A stretch of DNA of 64,000 nt from Anaerolineae bacterium (GTDB lineage: Bacteria; Chloroflexota; Anaerolineae; Aggregatilineales; Phototrophicaceae). Position numbers and translations under genes: made by a program. The DNA lies in the NCBI GenBank assembly GCA_022843385.1, contig JALHNT010000003.1:1-64000 (forward strand), read 5' to 3'. Numbering within the stretch: position 1 is the first letter of the stretch; every line of letters starts with the position of its first letter. Of the stretch, positions 9,270 through 57,842 are shown one piece after another. The notes under the pieces were generated by a model, which was not told the origin of the DNA, searched no databases, and saw nothing but the letters and a program-made list of their open reading frames with translations.

Positions 9270-9307
9270 TAAAACAGGATGTGGCTGTGCAAGTCATATC
9301 CTGTTTT
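9270..9307 (+). terminator. Rho-independent terminator after sugar dehydrogenase
   Basis: AAACAGGAT...ATATCCTGTTTTTC hairpin plus T-run. Confidence 0.7.
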
Positions 9308-9401
9308 TCATGGATTGTGACTTACGTGCTGGATGTCAGGTCGCACGGCCATGTGCTGCTGCATTCCCTGAACAGTGTGAGTCCTGTTGCACAAGGAGAT
9401 G

Positions 9402-10937
9402 ATGATGAAGTGGCTCAATACCTTCCTGCTCGGCTTTCTGCTGCTGCTGGCGCTGACCCCGGCCCTGGCGCAGGAGGCGACGGTTGAATTGGAAGCCTAT
9501 ACCGATGACAATTTTGGCTTTAGCAGCGTGCGGCCTGCCGGTTGGCAGGATGGCGGCTTTGGTCTGTATCGCCGGGCGGACGGTGCGGCCGACATCACGC
9601 TGATCGCGCAACAAGCAGCGGCGGCCGCACCAGAAGTGCTGATGGAATCCATTCTGCCACAGCTTGGCCTGAGCGCGGCGCCAGAGAGCATCGGCACCCA
9701 TGAGTCGGAAACGATGATCTGGACACTGTACCAGGTGGATGTTCCGGCTGGTGCCATGACCATTCGGGTGCATTTTGGCATGGCGCAGGCCGACAGCCGT
9801 ACTTACGTCGTCTTCCTGCAATCTCCAGCCGAGGAATCGGATGTGCTGTACGAACAGGTCTTCGTGCCAATGCTCGATGCCCTGACGCCGGTCACAGTGG
9901 CGGTGGAAGACCTGCCGTATATCGTGGAAGATGTGACATTCGATAACGGTGATGTTACGCTGGCAGGTAACCTGACGCTGCCCGAAGGCGCTGGGCCGCA
10001 CCCGGCGGTGGTGCTGGTCAGCGGCAGTGGGCCACAGAACCGTGACGAAGACCTGGGTTTGGGATTGAAACCCTTCAGTGTGATCGCCGATTACCTGACG
10101 CGCCAGGGGATCGCCGTGCTGCGTTACGATGATCGCGGTGTGGCTGAATCGACCGGGACATTTGCTCAGGCGACGATTGATGACTTCGCCAGCGATGCCC
10201 AGGCGGCCGTCACCTATCTGCTGACTCGTGATGACATCAACCCGGAACAGATCGGCATCCTCGGTCATAGCGAAGGCGGCATCGTGGCGGCGCGGCTCGG
10301 TGCCACCGATGACCGGCTGGCGTTCCTGGTTTCGATGGCGGGGACGGCGGTGAACGGGCTGGAGATTCTGCTGCGACAGAACGAACTGTTGCTCAAGGCC
10401 GAAGGCTTCAGCGACGAATACATTCAGTTGCAGGTCGACTTTTTGACACAGGTCGCTGAACTTCTGCCCGCTGACGATCTGGAAGCGATTGAGCAGCTCA
10501 CCCGCGATACCATCAGCCAGCAGTACGCGCTGCTGCCCGACGATCAGAGGGCGGCGCTGGGCGATCTCGATGATGCAGTGGACAAGGCAGTTCAGTCGTT
10601 CATGCATAACTATGCGGCCAATGCCTGGTTCGAGTCTTTCCTCAACAATGATCCGGGGCTGGACTGGGCGCAGACGACTATACCCGTGTTGTTCGTTCTG
10701 GGGGGCAAGGATTTGCAGGTGCCGGCTGATGTGGTTCAGGCTCCATTTGAAGCGGCGATGGCCCAGGCCGGTAACGAGGACTTCGAGGTGGTGGTATTCC
10801 CCAACGCCAATCATCTGATGCAGGAAGCTGAGACCGGCGCGATTTCGGAATATGCGACGTTGGCGCAGGAATTCACACCGGAGTTCCTGCCGACTGTCGC
10901 CAAGTGGATTCTGGAACGGGTGGATGTAGCAGGTTAA
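9402..10937 (+). CDS. Secreted alpha/beta hydrolase (S33-like)
   Basis: Signal peptide; VVLVSGSGPQNRDED, RYDDRGVAEST, ILGHSEGGIVAA nucleophile elbow. Confidence 0.9.
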   Translation: MMKWLNTFLLGFLLLLALTPALAQEATVELEAYTDDNFGFSSVRPAGWQDGGFGLYRRADGAADITLIAQQAAAAAPEVLMESILPQLGLSAAPESIGTHESETMIWTLYQVDVPAGAMTIRVHFGMAQADSRTYVVFLQSPAEESDVLYEQVFVPMLDALTPVTVAVEDLPYIVEDVTFDNGDVTLAGNLTLPEGAGPHPAVVLVSGSGPQNRDEDLGLGLKPFSVIADYLTRQGIAVLRYDDRGVAESTGTFAQATIDDFASDAQAAVTYLLTRDDINPEQIGILGHSEGGIVAARLGATDDRLAFLVSMAGTAVNGLEILLRQNELLLKAEGFSDEYIQLQVDFLTQVAELLPADDLEAIEQLTRDTISQQYALLPDDQRAALGDLDDAVDKAVQSFMHNYAANAWFESFLNNDPGLDWAQTTIPVLFVLGGKDLQVPADVVQAPFEAAMAQAGNEDFEVVVFPNANHLMQEAETGAISEYATLAQEFTPEFLPTVAKWILERVDVAG

Positions 10938-10950
10938 TCCTGCAATCGGT

Positions 10951-10985
10951 GCATTCCCCTCCTGGTCCAATGAATCAGGAGGGGG
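10951..10985. terminator. Bidirectional hairpin terminator
   Basis: CCCCTCCTG-gtccaatgaat-CAGGAGGGG between convergent genes. Confidence 0.55.
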
Positions 10986-10990
10986 GCATG

Positions 10991-11335
10991 CTAATTCAGG
11001 ATTAAGATCAACCCGACGACGAGTTCAAACGCTGCTGTGCTGATGAAGCTGCCGGTCAGCGCCGGACGATCCAGCGCGACGCTGACCAACCGGCTGATCA
11101 GCACCAGCAGGAAAACCGCGCCGACGGTCTGATATACCACAGCCTGATTCAGTAGCAGCGGCACAACCCCCAGCGCGAGGGACAATGCCCCAAAATTGAC
11201 ACGAATTTCCAGCAGACCGTTGCCGTCATTCGGCGTCAGATGACCGATGGCTGCGGCGGCTTTAGGCTGGGCGAAGGCGTAGAGGCCGAACAGGATCAGC
11301 GCGATGCAGGCTGCAATGTTCAGGATCATTTCCAT
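10991..11335 (-). CDS. Small integral membrane protein (DUF4345-like)
   Basis: Four predicted hydrophobic helices in 114 aa; overlaps the MarR gene by one base. Confidence 0.6.
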   Translation of the reverse strand: MEMILNIAACIALILFGLYAFAQPKAAAAIGHLTPNDGNGLLEIRVNFGALSLALGVVPLLLNQAVVYQTVGAVFLLVLISRLVSVALDRPALTGSFISTAAFELVVGLILILN

Positions 11336-11805
11336 CAGCTTGAATCTCCCACAAGGCTTTGTGTCTGCATCAGGTCAATATAGCGCGTCAGATACTGGAT
11401 GAAGTGCTGGCGTTCCTCATGGTTCAGCAGGCTGAAGAGGGATCGCACCTGTTCGAGCAGATCGGTCTGGATGGCCTGAAACCGTTCCCAGCCGGCCTGT
11501 GTCAGCAGCACATCCACCGAGCGCCGATCAGCTTCGCGCTGTTCGCGCACCACCAGCGGTGGACTGACTGACTCCAGGCGCTTGACCAGGCCAGTCATGG
11601 TGGCGCTGGTCAGATGATGCTGCCGGGCGATTTCGCCAATCGGGCAGCGGCCATTCCGTTCAGAAAGGGTTTTCAGGACATAGAATTGAGGCGGGGTCAG
11701 TTGATGAGCCGCCAGATACGCGCCGAGTCGCTTTTCACCATCCAGGACAATGGTGAACAACAGCGACCACAGGACATTGACATCCGAATCGAGGTGCGTA
11801 TCCAC
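11335..11805 (-). CDS. MarR family transcriptional regulator
   Basis: LTPPQFYVLKTLSERNGRCPIGEIARQHHLTSATMTGLVKRLE...READRRSVDVLLTQAG. Confidence 0.92.
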   Translation of the reverse strand: MDTHLDSDVNVLWSLLFTIVLDGEKRLGAYLAAHQLTPPQFYVLKTLSERNGRCPIGEIARQHHLTSATMTGLVKRLESVSPPLVVREQREADRRSVDVLLTQAGWERFQAIQTDLLEQVRSLFSLLNHEERQHFIQYLTRYIDLMQTQSLVGDSS

Positions 11806-11823
11806 GAGCCTTTGAGCAGCACA

Positions 11824-11844
11824 ATGAACGAATAATGTTGTTCA
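11824..11844. promoter_or_regulatory. Candidate MarR operator
   Basis: Inverted repeat TGAAC-N11-GTTCA just upstream of the marR start. Confidence 0.35.
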
Positions 11845-11855
11845 GTGTAGCTTGT

Positions 11856-12344
11856 TTAGAGCGCAGACGCTACTGTCGGCAGATCCTCCAGAATATCGTG
11901 CAGCTTCGGCCAGATGCGATCATCCGGCACCAGCCACTTGCGGCTCACCAGAAGGTGGTGGTCGAGCAAGACCATGCCATGAAAGCGCTCCATGCTCAAT
12001 GCCTGGTGTACCCGCCCATCCGTATCAGCCAGCAAGGGGAATTCAGGGGGCATGGCACTGCTGACGTAAAATCCGTACAACAGATGTGGCTCGTCGCGCG
12101 CAACCAGCGCCATGTTCACGCCCTGCCGTTTGAAGCTGTAAAAGTTACGTTGCAACCACAGGATGCGCTGGATGCTGATGGCATTCCAGACATCACTGAT
12201 GAAGCCCAGCATCAGCCCATTTTCGCCGATGAGATCAGCCAGAAAATGAGTCTTGTTCGCATGGTCGCGAATCAGGAAGTTGGTAATGGAATGGCTGAGC
12301 GGCGGGCCAAGCTCCAACGTCACGTTGGCAGAATCATAGTTCAT
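11856..12344 (-). CDS. Peroxiredoxin/thioredoxin-fold-like protein without cysteines
   Basis: PPEFPLLADTDGRVHQAL resembles AhpC/TSA PFPLLADxxGxVxxAYG; no Cys in the sequence. Confidence 0.5.
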   Translation of the reverse strand: MNYDSANVTLELGPPLSHSITNFLIRDHANKTHFLADLIGENGLMLGFISDVWNAISIQRILWLQRNFYSFKRQGVNMALVARDEPHLLYGFYVSSAMPPEFPLLADTDGRVHQALSMERFHGMVLLDHHLLVSRKWLVPDDRIWPKLHDILEDLPTVASAL

Positions 12345-12528
12345 TGGGTGTAATGCTCCTCATTGCACGGACTACCCTTAGTATAAAGCATTAATTTGGC
12401 GAATCTAATCAATCCTGAATTAAGGTTTTGTGGCAGATAGTCGCCAAATCTTAAGTGGACGGTTGAGTCGAGCAGCGTGAGAGGCGGTACAATACAAGTT
12501 AACATAAATGAGCAGGAGGGCAGCGACG

Positions 12529-14118
12529 ATGGGCGGTACAAACTTCATGCTGCAATGGCCGACGGCTGATGGTCGGGTGACACGACCCTACGATGCTGTC
12601 ACCGGCCTGATTGGACTGGCAGCACCCGCCGGTACACCGGTGAAATCCGGTGCACCAGGAATTGTCATCATGGCGGATGCTGATACTGTGCAGATCAAGT
12701 CCGGGTTGTACAGTGTGATCTATGACAACCTGCGCCAGATTCGGGTGCAATTGGGTGATGATGTCAGCGCCGGCGACCTACTGGGCGAATCGGCTGGGCC
12801 GGAGATTCGCCTGAGCATTCACCAGACGATTGATCCGACGCCGCTGCTGATGGCTGCGCCACCTCCAGCGGTTGCTCCGGCGGCGCCGCCTGCGCCGGTG
12901 CCAGCTCCAGTGCCAGCAGGTGGCGTGGCTACGACGAAATGGTATGTGACGCCCGTACAGAGTGGGCTGCGCATTCGTGAGAAGCCGGTGGATGGCAACC
13001 CGATTGGTCAGGCTGGCATTGGTGACATCCTCGAAGTATTGGACTCACCAGCGGTTGCTCGTTCCCGGCTGGGCGTTGAAGGCCAGTGGGTCAATGTGCG
13101 GACATTGTTCGGGGTGACCGGCTTCAGCGCGGCGCAATTCCTGCGCGAGTACACCGGCCCGATTACGACACCTGCGCCACTCCCGCCTATGCTCGGTGTG
13201 ACTGGCATGAATCTCGATCCGCACAATCCGCTGGGGCATCCTGCGCCAGAACGGCTGAAAGGGTTGGGCTGGATACGGGTCAAGTTCAATGTGTCGTATA
13301 ACCCGGATAACAACAGCTTCGGCAACACCGATGTCAATGCCACCTTCAACCGGATGCGCCCGTTTCTGAAACCCTACACCGATGCCGGCCTGAAAGTGCT
13401 GATGGTCTTCACCCATCAGTTGTTCGGCGAGGGGGCAGGCTATCACTGGCCGTCGATGGACAGCGGCCGCTGGAATGAGTTCATCCCACGTTATGCCGAT
13501 TTCGCCAAACGGACGGCGGCGCTCTTCGCCGGGCTGGGACTGGTTCACGCCTACCAGATCTGGAATGAACAGGATACTGACCCCGCAGTGGCGCGCGCGG
13601 CGGTTCCGATTCCAGCCGGGGATTATGGCAACATGCTGACCCAGACCATTCGCGCCATCCGCAGCGTCGACTCCAGCACGCCGATCCTCACTGGCGGTCA
13701 CGTCGGCGGGCCAGATCGTGGCAGTGCTTATGCCCGTGCTACGCTCTCGGCCATGCCACCCGATGTGCGCCCGGATGGCATAGCGACTCATCCCTACGGG
13801 CGCGGCGTCAGTGGTCATCCCTTCAGCAATTGGGGGCCGCTCGATGAAGAAATCCGTAAGTACGCTGCTGTCATGCCGGGGCGTCCGTTGTGGATCACTG
13901 AATGGGGAGTGCTGGATCGGCAGGGTGACATGGGCGTGGTCAACGATGTTGCCAGTTATGCCCAGGGTTTCATCAACATCATCAAGTCACAGTTCAGCGG
14001 GCAGATCGCCGCTGCCATCTGGTATGCCTGGGCGGATGGGATGGATAATGGTTATGGTCTGGTGGGGCGCGATGACCAGCCGAAGCAGCCCCTCTGTCAA
14101 CAATTTCTGACGCTTTAG
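12529..14118 (+). CDS. Glycoside hydrolase-fold protein with N-terminal M23-like and SH3b-like domains
   Basis: SGLRIREKPVDGNPIG SH3 region; VHAYQIWNEQD and PLWITEWGV acid-containing strands of clan-A hydrolases; AGGAGGG RBS upstream of 12529. Confidence 0.75.
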   Translation: MGGTNFMLQWPTADGRVTRPYDAVTGLIGLAAPAGTPVKSGAPGIVIMADADTVQIKSGLYSVIYDNLRQIRVQLGDDVSAGDLLGESAGPEIRLSIHQTIDPTPLLMAAPPPAVAPAAPPAPVPAPVPAGGVATTKWYVTPVQSGLRIREKPVDGNPIGQAGIGDILEVLDSPAVARSRLGVEGQWVNVRTLFGVTGFSAAQFLREYTGPITTPAPLPPMLGVTGMNLDPHNPLGHPAPERLKGLGWIRVKFNVSYNPDNNSFGNTDVNATFNRMRPFLKPYTDAGLKVLMVFTHQLFGEGAGYHWPSMDSGRWNEFIPRYADFAKRTAALFAGLGLVHAYQIWNEQDTDPAVARAAVPIPAGDYGNMLTQTIRAIRSVDSSTPILTGGHVGGPDRGSAYARATLSAMPPDVRPDGIATHPYGRGVSGHPFSNWGPLDEEIRKYAAVMPGRPLWITEWGVLDRQGDMGVVNDVASYAQGFINIIKSQFSGQIAAAIWYAWADGMDNGYGLVGRDDQPKQPLCQQFLTL

Positions 14119-51387: not shown

Positions 51388-51756
51388 GCCGCCGGCGGAT
51401 CGGAATTGCGGTGGCGGAACGACGGGAGCGATCCGCCACTATCCGCCGCCGGAAGACTTCACCACTGGGAAGCAGAGCGAGCCTGCGTAAATTTCTGCAA
51501 ATGCGGCAAATTCTGCACCGCCTTTTTTGCAGTTTGTGCAGAATAGCTTTCAGCCATCATCCTTTAGTCTGCTGACTATCGACTGACGACTGATCGCGGC
51601 GCGGACAGTTCGGTTTCGGCGCGGTCAACTCACGGGAGCAACTGCCTGGCGCTGGCCTGTACTGGAGGCTATATGGGGTTGTTAAGTTGCACGGGGAAAT
51701 GATGCCATCTCCCACATGATTAGTATAGAACAAAAGGGCTAAGTCTGTCAAGCCCC
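51388..51756 (-). repeat. Non-coding promoter-bearing element, copy B (adjacent to RT-TIR gene)
   Basis: Reverse complement collinear with 30035-30566 in at least five conserved blocks separated by variable spacers. Confidence 0.85.
51722..51751 (-). promoter_or_regulatory. Sigma70-like promoter of copy B
   Basis: Minus strand TTGACA (51751-51746), 18 bp, TATACT (51727-51722). Confidence 0.7.
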
Positions 51757-51853
51757 GCATTAGTGGGGTATCCTAGCATCATACTGTAAATACAGACACA
51801 TAAGAGTACTCCATACACTATGATATACTGTAGATAACATCCTTGGAAATGAG

Positions 51854-54451
51854 TTGTTGCATTACTTTGGACACAACCCTCACATGACCAGCCTCAACGA
51901 TCAAGAATTCAATAGTTTTCTCAGTATTGAAAACTTCCTATTAGCATGGGAGCGTCTCCAGCGATCAACAAGGTACGAAACCAAGGATCGCCTGGGATTA
52001 GCTGTTTACAAGCCGCAAATTGAGCAACATATTCAACTATTGGTAGACAAGATTGTGGCTGGAACCTATCTTCCCGAAGAACCTCATGTTATTTTCCAGC
52101 CCAAAAAAGATGGCACAAAACGGATGTTATCCTTCTTGTCTATGGATGACCGCCTAGTCTACCAAGCCTTGGGAAATATCATCATCAACAACACGTATTC
52201 TGAAATTTGGAAATTGCATCAAGAGAAGCGAATATATGCAAACATTCCCAATCGACCAGAAGATGTTAAGGCCTACCCCCATATCTTTAAGCCAACATTT
52301 ACTATCAACCCCGGTACCTCATATGCTGTGATAGGGCAATACGAAATATTTGTTTCAGATGTAATCAAGGCTGTAAAGGATTTGCGGGATCATTCTAAAG
52401 AATCTTGGTTGATTCGGACGGATATCTCCAGTTTTTATCCTTCAATATCTCACGAGCTTTTCCTTACCATGCTTGCTGAAAGGCAATGGTTAACTGATGA
52501 ACGCTTGATAAGATTACTAGGAGAGTGTCTATTTATTTGGAGAGAAGACAAGACAACAACACGTGGACTTCCAGTCGGATATGAAACCTCCGATTATCTG
52601 GGAGGTTTATTCCTGCAAAATTTTGATAGGTCAGATCGATTTAAAGATCTTCGCTTATTGCGATACGTGGATGACATATATGTTTTTGTCGAATCTAGAA
52701 GTTTGCTTCGGAAGACGTTGAGGGACATTGATATTGAATTTGAGAAATTGTTGCTGAAACGAAATGTAGAGAAGACCAAGAAGTTTAACTTGGCTATTAC
52801 TCCCATAGACAATATTATTTCAGATATTCAGAATCACCTTTCTCATATTTTGATTGACGTACAAGGACATCAATCTCAATTAGCATTGCGTCAGGAATTC
52901 TCCAAAGCCTATACTTCAAATCCAAGCAAAGATACTGATCCGCTTGGTGTATGTAGCCCGGAAAAAATGATTGTACCTTCCACAATTGCATTTGTACTTT
53001 ACCGGTTATGTGTAACGGATGATAATGTACGCGAAGTTGCGCTGGGCATGTTGGTAAGTTATCCCAAATACGCAAAACATGCGGCAACTTATCTTGCTAA
53101 GAACTACGCTCTTGATGATGAAGTTGTTGAGTTCTTGGGGCACATACTAAGTGACGAGGAAGAACACTCTTCAGTGCGATTCCATGCTCTTGAAGGTCTT
53201 GTGCAGATGCGAGGCTTTAAGCACGTTGAAGATTACCTGTTTTCTTCGTATTTTGATATGAATCTGCAATATAAGATTTTGGATTTATTTGATCGCTATG
53301 CTGACTGGGATAATCGACATTTTGAATACTGCAATCACCTTTTGCATTGTGACAGGTATGATGTATCAGCCAAAGCATTAAAGATTATCTTTGATCGAAT
53401 CAGCGATGTAAACGACAAGATTGAACTAATCAACTTTGGATTGGATAGCTCGCACTCTTTTTTGCGAAGAACAGCCATTTTTTTGTGGCGCAGTCAGATT
53501 GATATAGACGATAGCAATTTGCACTTGTCGAATGTGCCACTTGAAGAACGGGACAAATTATTACCTACAAATACTATTCAGTTACTCAGAAGTTTTTCGA
53601 ATAACTTAGGAAAGTTATTTGGAATTAATTTTTCCAATAAATTCCCTTTTTATATGTTGGAGCTTAACAAAATACAGTTGAATCAGAAAATCCTCACAAT
53701 ACGCGACACAAATGACGGGAAGCTGTTTATCAAAAATATTAACGACATTACGGTTGAACTTCTTAATGCCATTGCAGCAGTTGAAGGCAATCACAAAAAG
53801 TCTATCCTTGAAATAGAGACTATATGCAAGGAATTATATCATAAAGATGATATAGTGTGGAATAATACCAGCTTGTTGCGCGACACTGTCAAGAAGTTAA
53901 ACCCCGAAGAAGCTCCAGAATACTCAACGCGATCCGCGATAATGACTCAACTGAGCAAGCTTTTTCGACATCTATTCGCACAATTGCATGACAGATTCCT
54001 GGGAGTTCCTATGCGTGATCTAATTTTTGTATGTTATGCAAAGAAGAATAAATCCTGGCTGGAAGACAAATTGCTACCCGCGTTGCGTGGACGAATTGGT
54101 GACAAGTCTAGGATTTGGTATGATGAGGTCGGGATAGAAGGAAGTGATATTTGGAGGCAAAAAATAGACTCGGCGTTACATCGAGCCAAAATCGCAGTGC
54201 TCTTGGTCAGTGCTGAGTTTTTTGATTCAGATTTCATCATGAATCATGAATTGCCGTACATATTGGATCACCATGGGTTAGGCGAAATCCTCATTTTCTG
54301 GATACCTATCGGGCATAGTAGAGTTGATTCCCACGAACTGTATGAAATCCAGTGTGTGGTTGATCCTCAAAATCCACTCGTAGGAAAGAGTGAGGCTGAA
54401 ATACAGGCAGCATTTAAGAAGCTGGCAGATGCTGTCTATAAAATTCTATAG
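51854..54451 (+). CDS. Reverse transcriptase - HEAT-like - TIR fusion protein, putative anti-phage defence
   Basis: RT: KKDGTKRMLSFLSMDDRLVYQAL, RTDISSFYPSIS, TTRGLPVGYETSDYLGG, LRYVDDIYVFV. TIR: RDLIFVCYAKKNKSWLEDKLLPALRGRIGDKSRIWYDEVGIEGSDIWRQKIDSALHRAKIAVLLVSAEFFDSDFIMNHELPYIL. AT-rich relative to neighbours. Confidence 0.92.
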   Translation: MLHYFGHNPHMTSLNDQEFNSFLSIENFLLAWERLQRSTRYETKDRLGLAVYKPQIEQHIQLLVDKIVAGTYLPEEPHVIFQPKKDGTKRMLSFLSMDDRLVYQALGNIIINNTYSEIWKLHQEKRIYANIPNRPEDVKAYPHIFKPTFTINPGTSYAVIGQYEIFVSDVIKAVKDLRDHSKESWLIRTDISSFYPSISHELFLTMLAERQWLTDERLIRLLGECLFIWREDKTTTRGLPVGYETSDYLGGLFLQNFDRSDRFKDLRLLRYVDDIYVFVESRSLLRKTLRDIDIEFEKLLLKRNVEKTKKFNLAITPIDNIISDIQNHLSHILIDVQGHQSQLALRQEFSKAYTSNPSKDTDPLGVCSPEKMIVPSTIAFVLYRLCVTDDNVREVALGMLVSYPKYAKHAATYLAKNYALDDEVVEFLGHILSDEEEHSSVRFHALEGLVQMRGFKHVEDYLFSSYFDMNLQYKILDLFDRYADWDNRHFEYCNHLLHCDRYDVSAKALKIIFDRISDVNDKIELINFGLDSSHSFLRRTAIFLWRSQIDIDDSNLHLSNVPLEERDKLLPTNTIQLLRSFSNNLGKLFGINFSNKFPFYMLELNKIQLNQKILTIRDTNDGKLFIKNINDITVELLNAIAAVEGNHKKSILEIETICKELYHKDDIVWNNTSLLRDTVKKLNPEEAPEYSTRSAIMTQLSKLFRHLFAQLHDRFLGVPMRDLIFVCYAKKNKSWLEDKLLPALRGRIGDKSRIWYDEVGIEGSDIWRQKIDSALHRAKIAVLLVSAEFFDSDFIMNHELPYILDHHGLGEILIFWIPIGHSRVDSHELYEIQCVVDPQNPLVGKSEAEIQAAFKKLADAVYKIL

Positions 54452-54501
54452 GCTACTTTCCATTTATACTAACTTTCGTCAATAGTGATAATGGCGAACC
54501 A

Positions 54502-54534
54502 CAAAAGGGCGAGCCACACGGATGTGACCCGCCC
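54502..54534 (-). terminator. Rho-independent terminator of M16 peptidase operon
   Basis: Minus strand GGGCGGGTCACA-tccg-TGTGGCTCGCCC-TTTTGT. Confidence 0.75.
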
Positions 54535-57121: not shown

Positions 57122-57323
57122 TGTGACTCCTTACAATGCTCCGCAGACAAGGGGGTGTCGGCGACGATTGAACGACAAAATAGGGGACGTTACTGCCATC
57201 CCCCGACGATCTGTAGTGTATCAGCCTGTTAAATCAATTGCTACTGGCATAAGGGGTAGGGCAAGACGATCACCCGATTGCAGTCCATGATGGGATACTC
57301 GGAGCGTGTGAAAAGTGTGGCCT

Positions 57324-57842
57324 ATGCTGACGGTCAAGGAATTGACAGCCGAGGAATTTCTGACGCTGGCCGAGATGCACCCGGACAAACGCTTTGATTT
57401 CATGGATGGGGAGCTGGTTGAAGCCTCATCCAAGCCGCTGTACGGTCGCAAGCAAGTGTTGTTCGCCGTCGCTTTTGAAGCCTATGTCCAGCGGAATCCG
57501 GCGGGCGTGGTGTATACCGAAGTGCTGCACATGCTGGCGGGCGAGAAATTCATCCCGGATGTGTGCATCAATGTGACGACAACCGACGATTATCTGACCG
57601 TGCCGCCGTTATGCGTGGTCGAAATTCGCTCGGATACCCAATCGCGCGAGTCGCAGCGGCGCAAAGCACGGGCTTATGTGCAGCACGGCATCCGGCTGAT
57701 GATTCTGGTGCTGCCGGGCGAACAAGTCGAAGTGTATCAGCCAGGGCGCACGGTTCAAATTCTGCTGGCTGATGATGTGCTGGATGGCGGCGCTGTGCTG
57801 CCAGGATTCCGGCTTCCCCTGGCAGCCATCCTGAGCATCTGA
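57324..57842 (+). CDS. Uma2 family (DUF820) endonuclease-like protein
   Basis: LTAEEFLTLAEMHPDKRFDFMDGELVEA; FIPDVCIN; PPLCVVEIRSDTQSRESQRRKARAYVQHGIRLMILV. Confidence 0.88.
   Translation: MLTVKELTAEEFLTLAEMHPDKRFDFMDGELVEASSKPLYGRKQVLFAVAFEAYVQRNPAGVVYTEVLHMLAGEKFIPDVCINVTTTDDYLTVPPLCVVEIRSDTQSRESQRRKARAYVQHGIRLMILVLPGEQVEVYQPGRTVQILLADDVLDGGAVLPGFRLPLAAILSI

Follow-up and report, generated by a model that had tools for sequence, protein, structure and literature searches.

Domain architecture

The analysed window, a stretch of 64,000 nucleotides (contig C3; total assembly size 7.85 Mb), harbors a reverse transcriptase (RT) gene whose product continues into a helical middle and a C-terminal TIR domain (Table 1). 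This gene is on balance probably a one-gene phage-defence system, because its combination of a UG19 RT, a scaffold and a TIR has been acquired and recurs in three further genomes of the same family. It would accordingly represent a horizontally acquired antiphage system that unites a class-1-like RT of the UG19 branch, a helical scaffold and a TIR effector.

The sequence-only reading had described a single 865-aa ORF at 51854–54451, and exactly one uninterrupted frame was found there on the plus strand, starting with TTG at 51854. The in-frame ATG at 51884 (855 aa) agrees better with the N-terminus of the relatives in the alignment than the TTG. Both terminal domains had been recognized correctly, since the 855/865-aa protein exceeds the Pfam cut-offs of RVT_1 (E=5.4e-17) and TIR_2 (E=1.8e-8), and the YVDD motif is located precisely at the proposed position 52664–52675. 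The catalytic aspartates of the RT are intact, with D180 and the RYVDD motif being invariant across the aligned relatives. The recurrence of the architecture in three other genomes documents that the fusion is not an assembly chimera.

Table 1. Features of the RT-helical-TIR gene and its surroundings (positions in the window) and further fusions
Feature	Position	Strand	Remarks
RT-helical-TIR gene	51884..54451	+	855 aa from ATG; alternative TTG start 51854, 865 aa
Reverse transcriptase domain, UG19-type, residues 1-310	51884..52813	+	RVT_1 E=5.4e-17; PADLOC RT_UG19 E=1e-65
RT motif A Asp D180	52421-52423	+	invariant among aligned relatives
YVDD catalytic motif, residues 261-264	52664..52675	+	invariant, 7/7 aligned RTs
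Helical HEAT-like middle, residues about 311-700	52814..53983	+	UG19 profile coverage; weak HEAT_2; contains the stretch aligned with the HEPN-like C-terminus of UG19, without R-x-H motif
TIR domain, residues 708-855	54005..54448	+	TIR_2 E=1.8e-8; AbTIR alignment
Presumed catalytic Glu E789	54248-54250	+	invariant in four fusions
AT-rich island, probable extent of acquired DNA	51700..54500	.	about 39% GC vs about 60% surroundings
Direct repeat 10 bp, left copy ACAAAAGGGC	51730..51739	+	at GC boundary
Direct repeat 10 bp, right copy ACAAAAGGGC	54501..54510	+	at GC boundary
Further fusion P0004 (L023)			868 aa
Further fusion P0005 (L024)			850 aa
Further fusion P0006 (L026)			863 aa

The helical repeat-like character that had been ascribed to the middle receives indirect support from a HEAT_2 match below the threshold (E=0.015) and from its co-linear alignment with the UG19 profile. 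Two single-sequence AlphaFold models were of low confidence (pLDDT 38.7 for the window protein and 46.8), and fold searches with both returned no match at E<=0.001, so that structural confirmation was obtained neither for this HEAT fold nor for a HEPN fold in UG19.

Affiliation of the reverse transcriptase

The best PADLOC model for the window protein is RT_UG19 (E=1e-65, 220.9 bits), which aligns residues 18–686 with profile positions 2–542 of 562 and thereby spans both the RT and the helical region; it reaches twice the bits of the next model, RT_UG21 (105 bits). RT_UG19 is the top match of all four fusions, and the scores of the other three exceed those of the next group as well (311 vs 175, 196 vs 137 and 183 vs 136, compared with 221 vs 105 in the window). 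In the maximum-likelihood RT tree the four fusions form one clade (support 94/95), and UG19 (L003, L004, L039), the UG19-like RT L035 and UG21 branch near them at open forks. As the tree comprises few taxa with long branches, it places the fusion clade only loosely relative to UG19, UG21 and L035. Judged from profile scores and branching pattern, the fusion RT is assigned to, or beside, the defence-RT group UG19. The gene had been announced as a candidate new RT defence system; a role in defence is indeed likely, but its RT is not unplaced, since it falls within or beside this group.

The UG19 proteins proper of the same class (L003 and L039, 697 aa) lack a TIR. The members examined (L003/L013, L039) end in a HEPN-like R-x-H region instead, and the window protein scores about half their level and sits in its own fusion clade. 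As these canonical members lack a TIR, the RT does not fall inside a well-described TIR-fused clade, an outcome that would have refuted the sequence-only reading. A group II intron RT, for which the sequence-only reading had seen no obvious signs, was rejected because the maturase model matches the RT core only, with 78.5 bits versus a cut-off of 300. More generally, the window protein stays far below the cut-offs of the NCBIfam models for group II maturases, Drt3a, Drt5 and Retron-TIR.

Possible exchange of the C-terminal domain

The C-terminus of the UG19 and UG19-like proteins contains a conserved block that reads RNLVPGSH in L003, RNKLPSSH in L039 and RNRVDH in L035, and for the C-terminus of L035 there is a weak match (E=0.0018) to the HEPN portion of a CARF-HEPN model. 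The UG19 motif RNLVPGSH resembles the RNSNPVSH of the HEPN domain of AbiA, an RT with alpha-solenoid and HEPN domain whose polymerase is required for defence (PMC11077055). The fusion shares with AbiA the RYVDD motif and the succession of RT, helical solenoid and additional C-terminal domain, but it has a TIR instead of, or after, the HEPN domain, and AbiA represents a distinct group. The R-x(4-6)-H motif of the UG19 members examined is absent from the aligned position in all four TIR fusions, and a HEPN remnant in them was not significantly supported when profiles were compared with each other. The HEPN-like end of UG19 may have been replaced, or followed, by the TIR.

Certain TIR domains can destroy cellular NAD. 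The glutamate in MNHELPYIL, which had been singled out as a plausible NADase residue, is E789 and aligns with the glutamate of the NYEL motif in AbTIR, which we take to be the catalytic one; its equivalent is kept in all four fusions. The window TIR matches AbTIR, a solved NADase (8g83), with E=1.8e-6, and its nearest counterparts among the solved structures are NADase-type TIRs. TIR_2 is also recovered in P0004 (E=3e-11) and P0006 (E=4e-11), and slightly below the Pfam cut-off in P0005 (E=1e-5), whose TIR may be degenerate. P0005 and P0006, the closest pair, are 71% identical in the RT and 53% in the middle, whereas their TIRs share 26%, which indicates that the TIR has been exchanged or diverges far faster than its carrier. 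The TIR of P0006 is 30% identical to that of the window and thus at least as near to it as to that of P0005. With dN/dS values of about 0.14 for the RT and 0.23 for the middle, both parts are under purifying selection in this pair.

Horizontal acquisition and genomic context

The fusion gene was recently acquired by horizontal transfer. Its GC content is 39% between flanks of 59–60%, and those of the relatives' genes are 42–45% in surroundings of 59–63%. None of 16 congeners contains a match to the UG19 profile at the threshold used. The pair of M16 peptidase genes adjoining the fusion gene is conserved in all 16, and no RT-TIR gene is present in the M16 loci of congeners examined, some of which extend little past the gene. 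The two 10-bp direct repeats at the GC boundaries possibly represent a target-site duplication; chance is possible as well, as the expectation for such a pair is about 0.13. The right copy overlaps a terminator-like hairpin on the minus strand (54507–54534).

The window copy stands alone between a peptide transporter and the M16 peptidases, outside any defence island; a putative endonuclease of the Uma2 family (PF05685, E=1.5e-21) is encoded at 57315–57842 of the window. In two relatives' loci (L032, L033) genes for two UvrD-type helicases and a PD-(D/E)XK nuclease precede the RT-TIR gene, as seen in a Pfam scan of the L033 genes; 2 nt separate the preceding stop from the ATG of the fusion, and the next gene begins 13–21 nt behind it. 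This operon was rejected as an obligatory partner because a related helicase pair occurs without an RT on another contig of the window genome, where the second helicase (59% identical) is preceded by a UvrD-like gene. The UG19-like RT L035 with its HEPN-like end is located directly behind HsdR, HsdM and HsdS, i.e., in a defence setting. The coordinates L044:6789-9137 and 9298-13780 mark a UG19-like RT that ends in a HEPN-like region, lies directly downstream of a type I restriction operon and precedes two large ORFs of 962 and 533 aa, the former without a Pfam match.

Distribution and novelty

A search of the window's order (154 genomes) with the UG19 profile returned matches in 11 genomes, four of which, including that of the window, harbor the RT-helical-TIR fusion; the RT gene of L028 was left out of this reading. 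All four belong to the same family, and the three relatives likewise encode RT, helical middle and TIR within a single frame. The matches read from samples of the phylum (399 and 301 genomes), the class (396) and another order (250) included no further fusion. Peptide-pattern searches of GTDB contigs yielded no close homologue, and a second one retrieved only UG19 members and short RTs that are of the diversity-generating type as judged by eye. IMG/VR contained no close homologue, the plasmid and phage searches gave none covering most of the query, and a search of PubMed Central for RT-TIR or TIR-RT found nothing. In the papers, plasmids, phages and viral contigs searched, a set to which the catalogue 10.1093/nar/gkac467 does not belong, the UG19/helical/TIR architecture was not encountered, and its status as a new variant is provisional on that basis. 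What is provisionally novel is this combination; the union of RT and TIR (Retron-TIR) and UG19 as a catalogued group are already known.

Proposed mechanism and alternative explanations

Class 1 UG/Abi RTs synthesize protein-primed, untemplated DNA as oligomers, and in DRT1, a class 3 RT-nitrilase, such DNA controls the fused nitrilase (PMC13275509). The fusion has in common with the class 1 enzymes the layout of an RT with a helical domain and no adjacent ncRNA. DRT1 provides the mechanistic model, as it also combines an RT and an oligomerization-dependent effector in one polypeptide, but its effector is a nitrilase and it is not the RT group nearest to that of the window. Because there is no sign of an ncRNA, the simplest interpretation is that the fusion would work like DRT1, with a TIR as its effector. 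The RT would synthesize protein-primed, probably untemplated DNA on itself, and this DNA would act together with the helical scaffold to fix an oligomeric state in which the TIRs are kept apart or locked. The complex would be disturbed by proteins of the phage or by changes that the phage causes in the nucleotide pool, whereupon the TIRs would come together and either cleave NAD+ or produce a signal of the cyclic-ADPR type, halting the cell ahead of phage release. The domains, the catalytic residues, the UG19 affinity, the single TIR-fused clade and the recent acquisition rest on observation; the untemplated synthesis, the oligomer gating, the NADase activity, the phage trigger and the defence role are inferred, and so is the RT-gated NAD depletion that the sequence-only reading had proposed. 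We tentatively entertain the more specific idea of a new defence-RT type, in which a UG19 RT-solenoid swapped its HEPN-like end for exchangeable TIRs and self-primed DNA synthesis directly switches the NADase. A link of DRT polymerization to NAD depletion was not found described. The role of the untemplated DNA from class 1 defence RTs is an open question (PMC13275509), and a class 1 RT-TIR fusion with an easily measured output (NAD+ loss or cyclic-ADPR) would make it testable in one protein. The fusion clade, with its closely related RTs and very different TIRs, moreover amounts to a natural experiment in effector exchange.

An RT of the retron or class-2 kind would instead copy a dedicated ncRNA, and the DNA-RNA or the product would restrain the TIR until phage disturbs it, which we consider unlikely here. 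The class-2-like models named alongside Retron-TIR are DRT2/DRT9, and Retron-TIR itself reportedly goes back to Gao et al. 2020. TIR-RT polypeptides do exist among retrons (PMC10952713), and the Retron-TIR model (NCBIfam NF042941; 464 aa, 'TIR domain-containing anti-phage reverse transcriptase') likewise has RT and TIR in one protein, but the window protein possesses a helical middle of ~390 residues, shows no sign of msr/msd RNA and scores 26 bits against a cut-off of 600, so that identity with Retron-TIR was rejected. In favour of an ncRNA, the window gene is preceded by a non-coding, AT-rich stretch of about 180 nt, and the region upstream of one relative's RT-TIR gene (L031:7780-7992) contains a perfect 17-bp palindromic hairpin (z=-3.8), no counterpart of which was seen ahead of the window gene. 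However, the 184 nt upstream of the window gene fold no better than shuffles (z=+1.0) and Rfam has nothing relevant near it, and for L032 and L033 an adjacent ncRNA was rejected because the genes abut on both sides, as documented by the intergenic gaps given above. It is possible that an ncRNA is encoded elsewhere.

The TIR might also act as a signal producer, as in Thoeris, where ThsB supplies a cyclic-ADPR isomer and thereby switches on a separate effector. This scenario is decidedly unlikely for the window gene. The TIR of P0004 is ThsB-like (124 bits with the ThsB model), but that of the window is a weak match (28.7 bits) whose nearest solved structures are of the NADase type. Thoeris itself has no RT. 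The window genome encodes one or more other proteins with TIR-like regions (e.g., L002, G000:C10), but no ThsA-like gene was recognized beside the window gene or the relatives examined among the neighbours scanned. We regard it as very improbable that the gene is no defence gene at all but serves host DNA repair, its RT having been domesticated and its TIR being a scaffold without catalytic activity. The tight co-directional position behind the UvrD-UvrD-PDDEXK operon in L032 and L033 would fit such a role, but the related helicase pair of the window genome manages without an RT, the RT gene is AT-rich against the operon, its distribution is patchy (4 of 154 genomes), and the TIR glutamate is conserved.

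Further reverse transcriptases

Several genomes of the same class encode RTs of the UG35 kind as whole ORFs of 946–1100 aa, assigned by PADLOC (L010, L011, L012) or by their grouping with these in the tree (L029, L030). Their N-terminal region is weakly methyltransferase-like, and their C-terminus is long and helical. Another RT (L027), whose frame spans no fewer than 863 aa (1398 aa as reported), continues into a long helical region and a C-terminus that resembles a protein kinase by eye.
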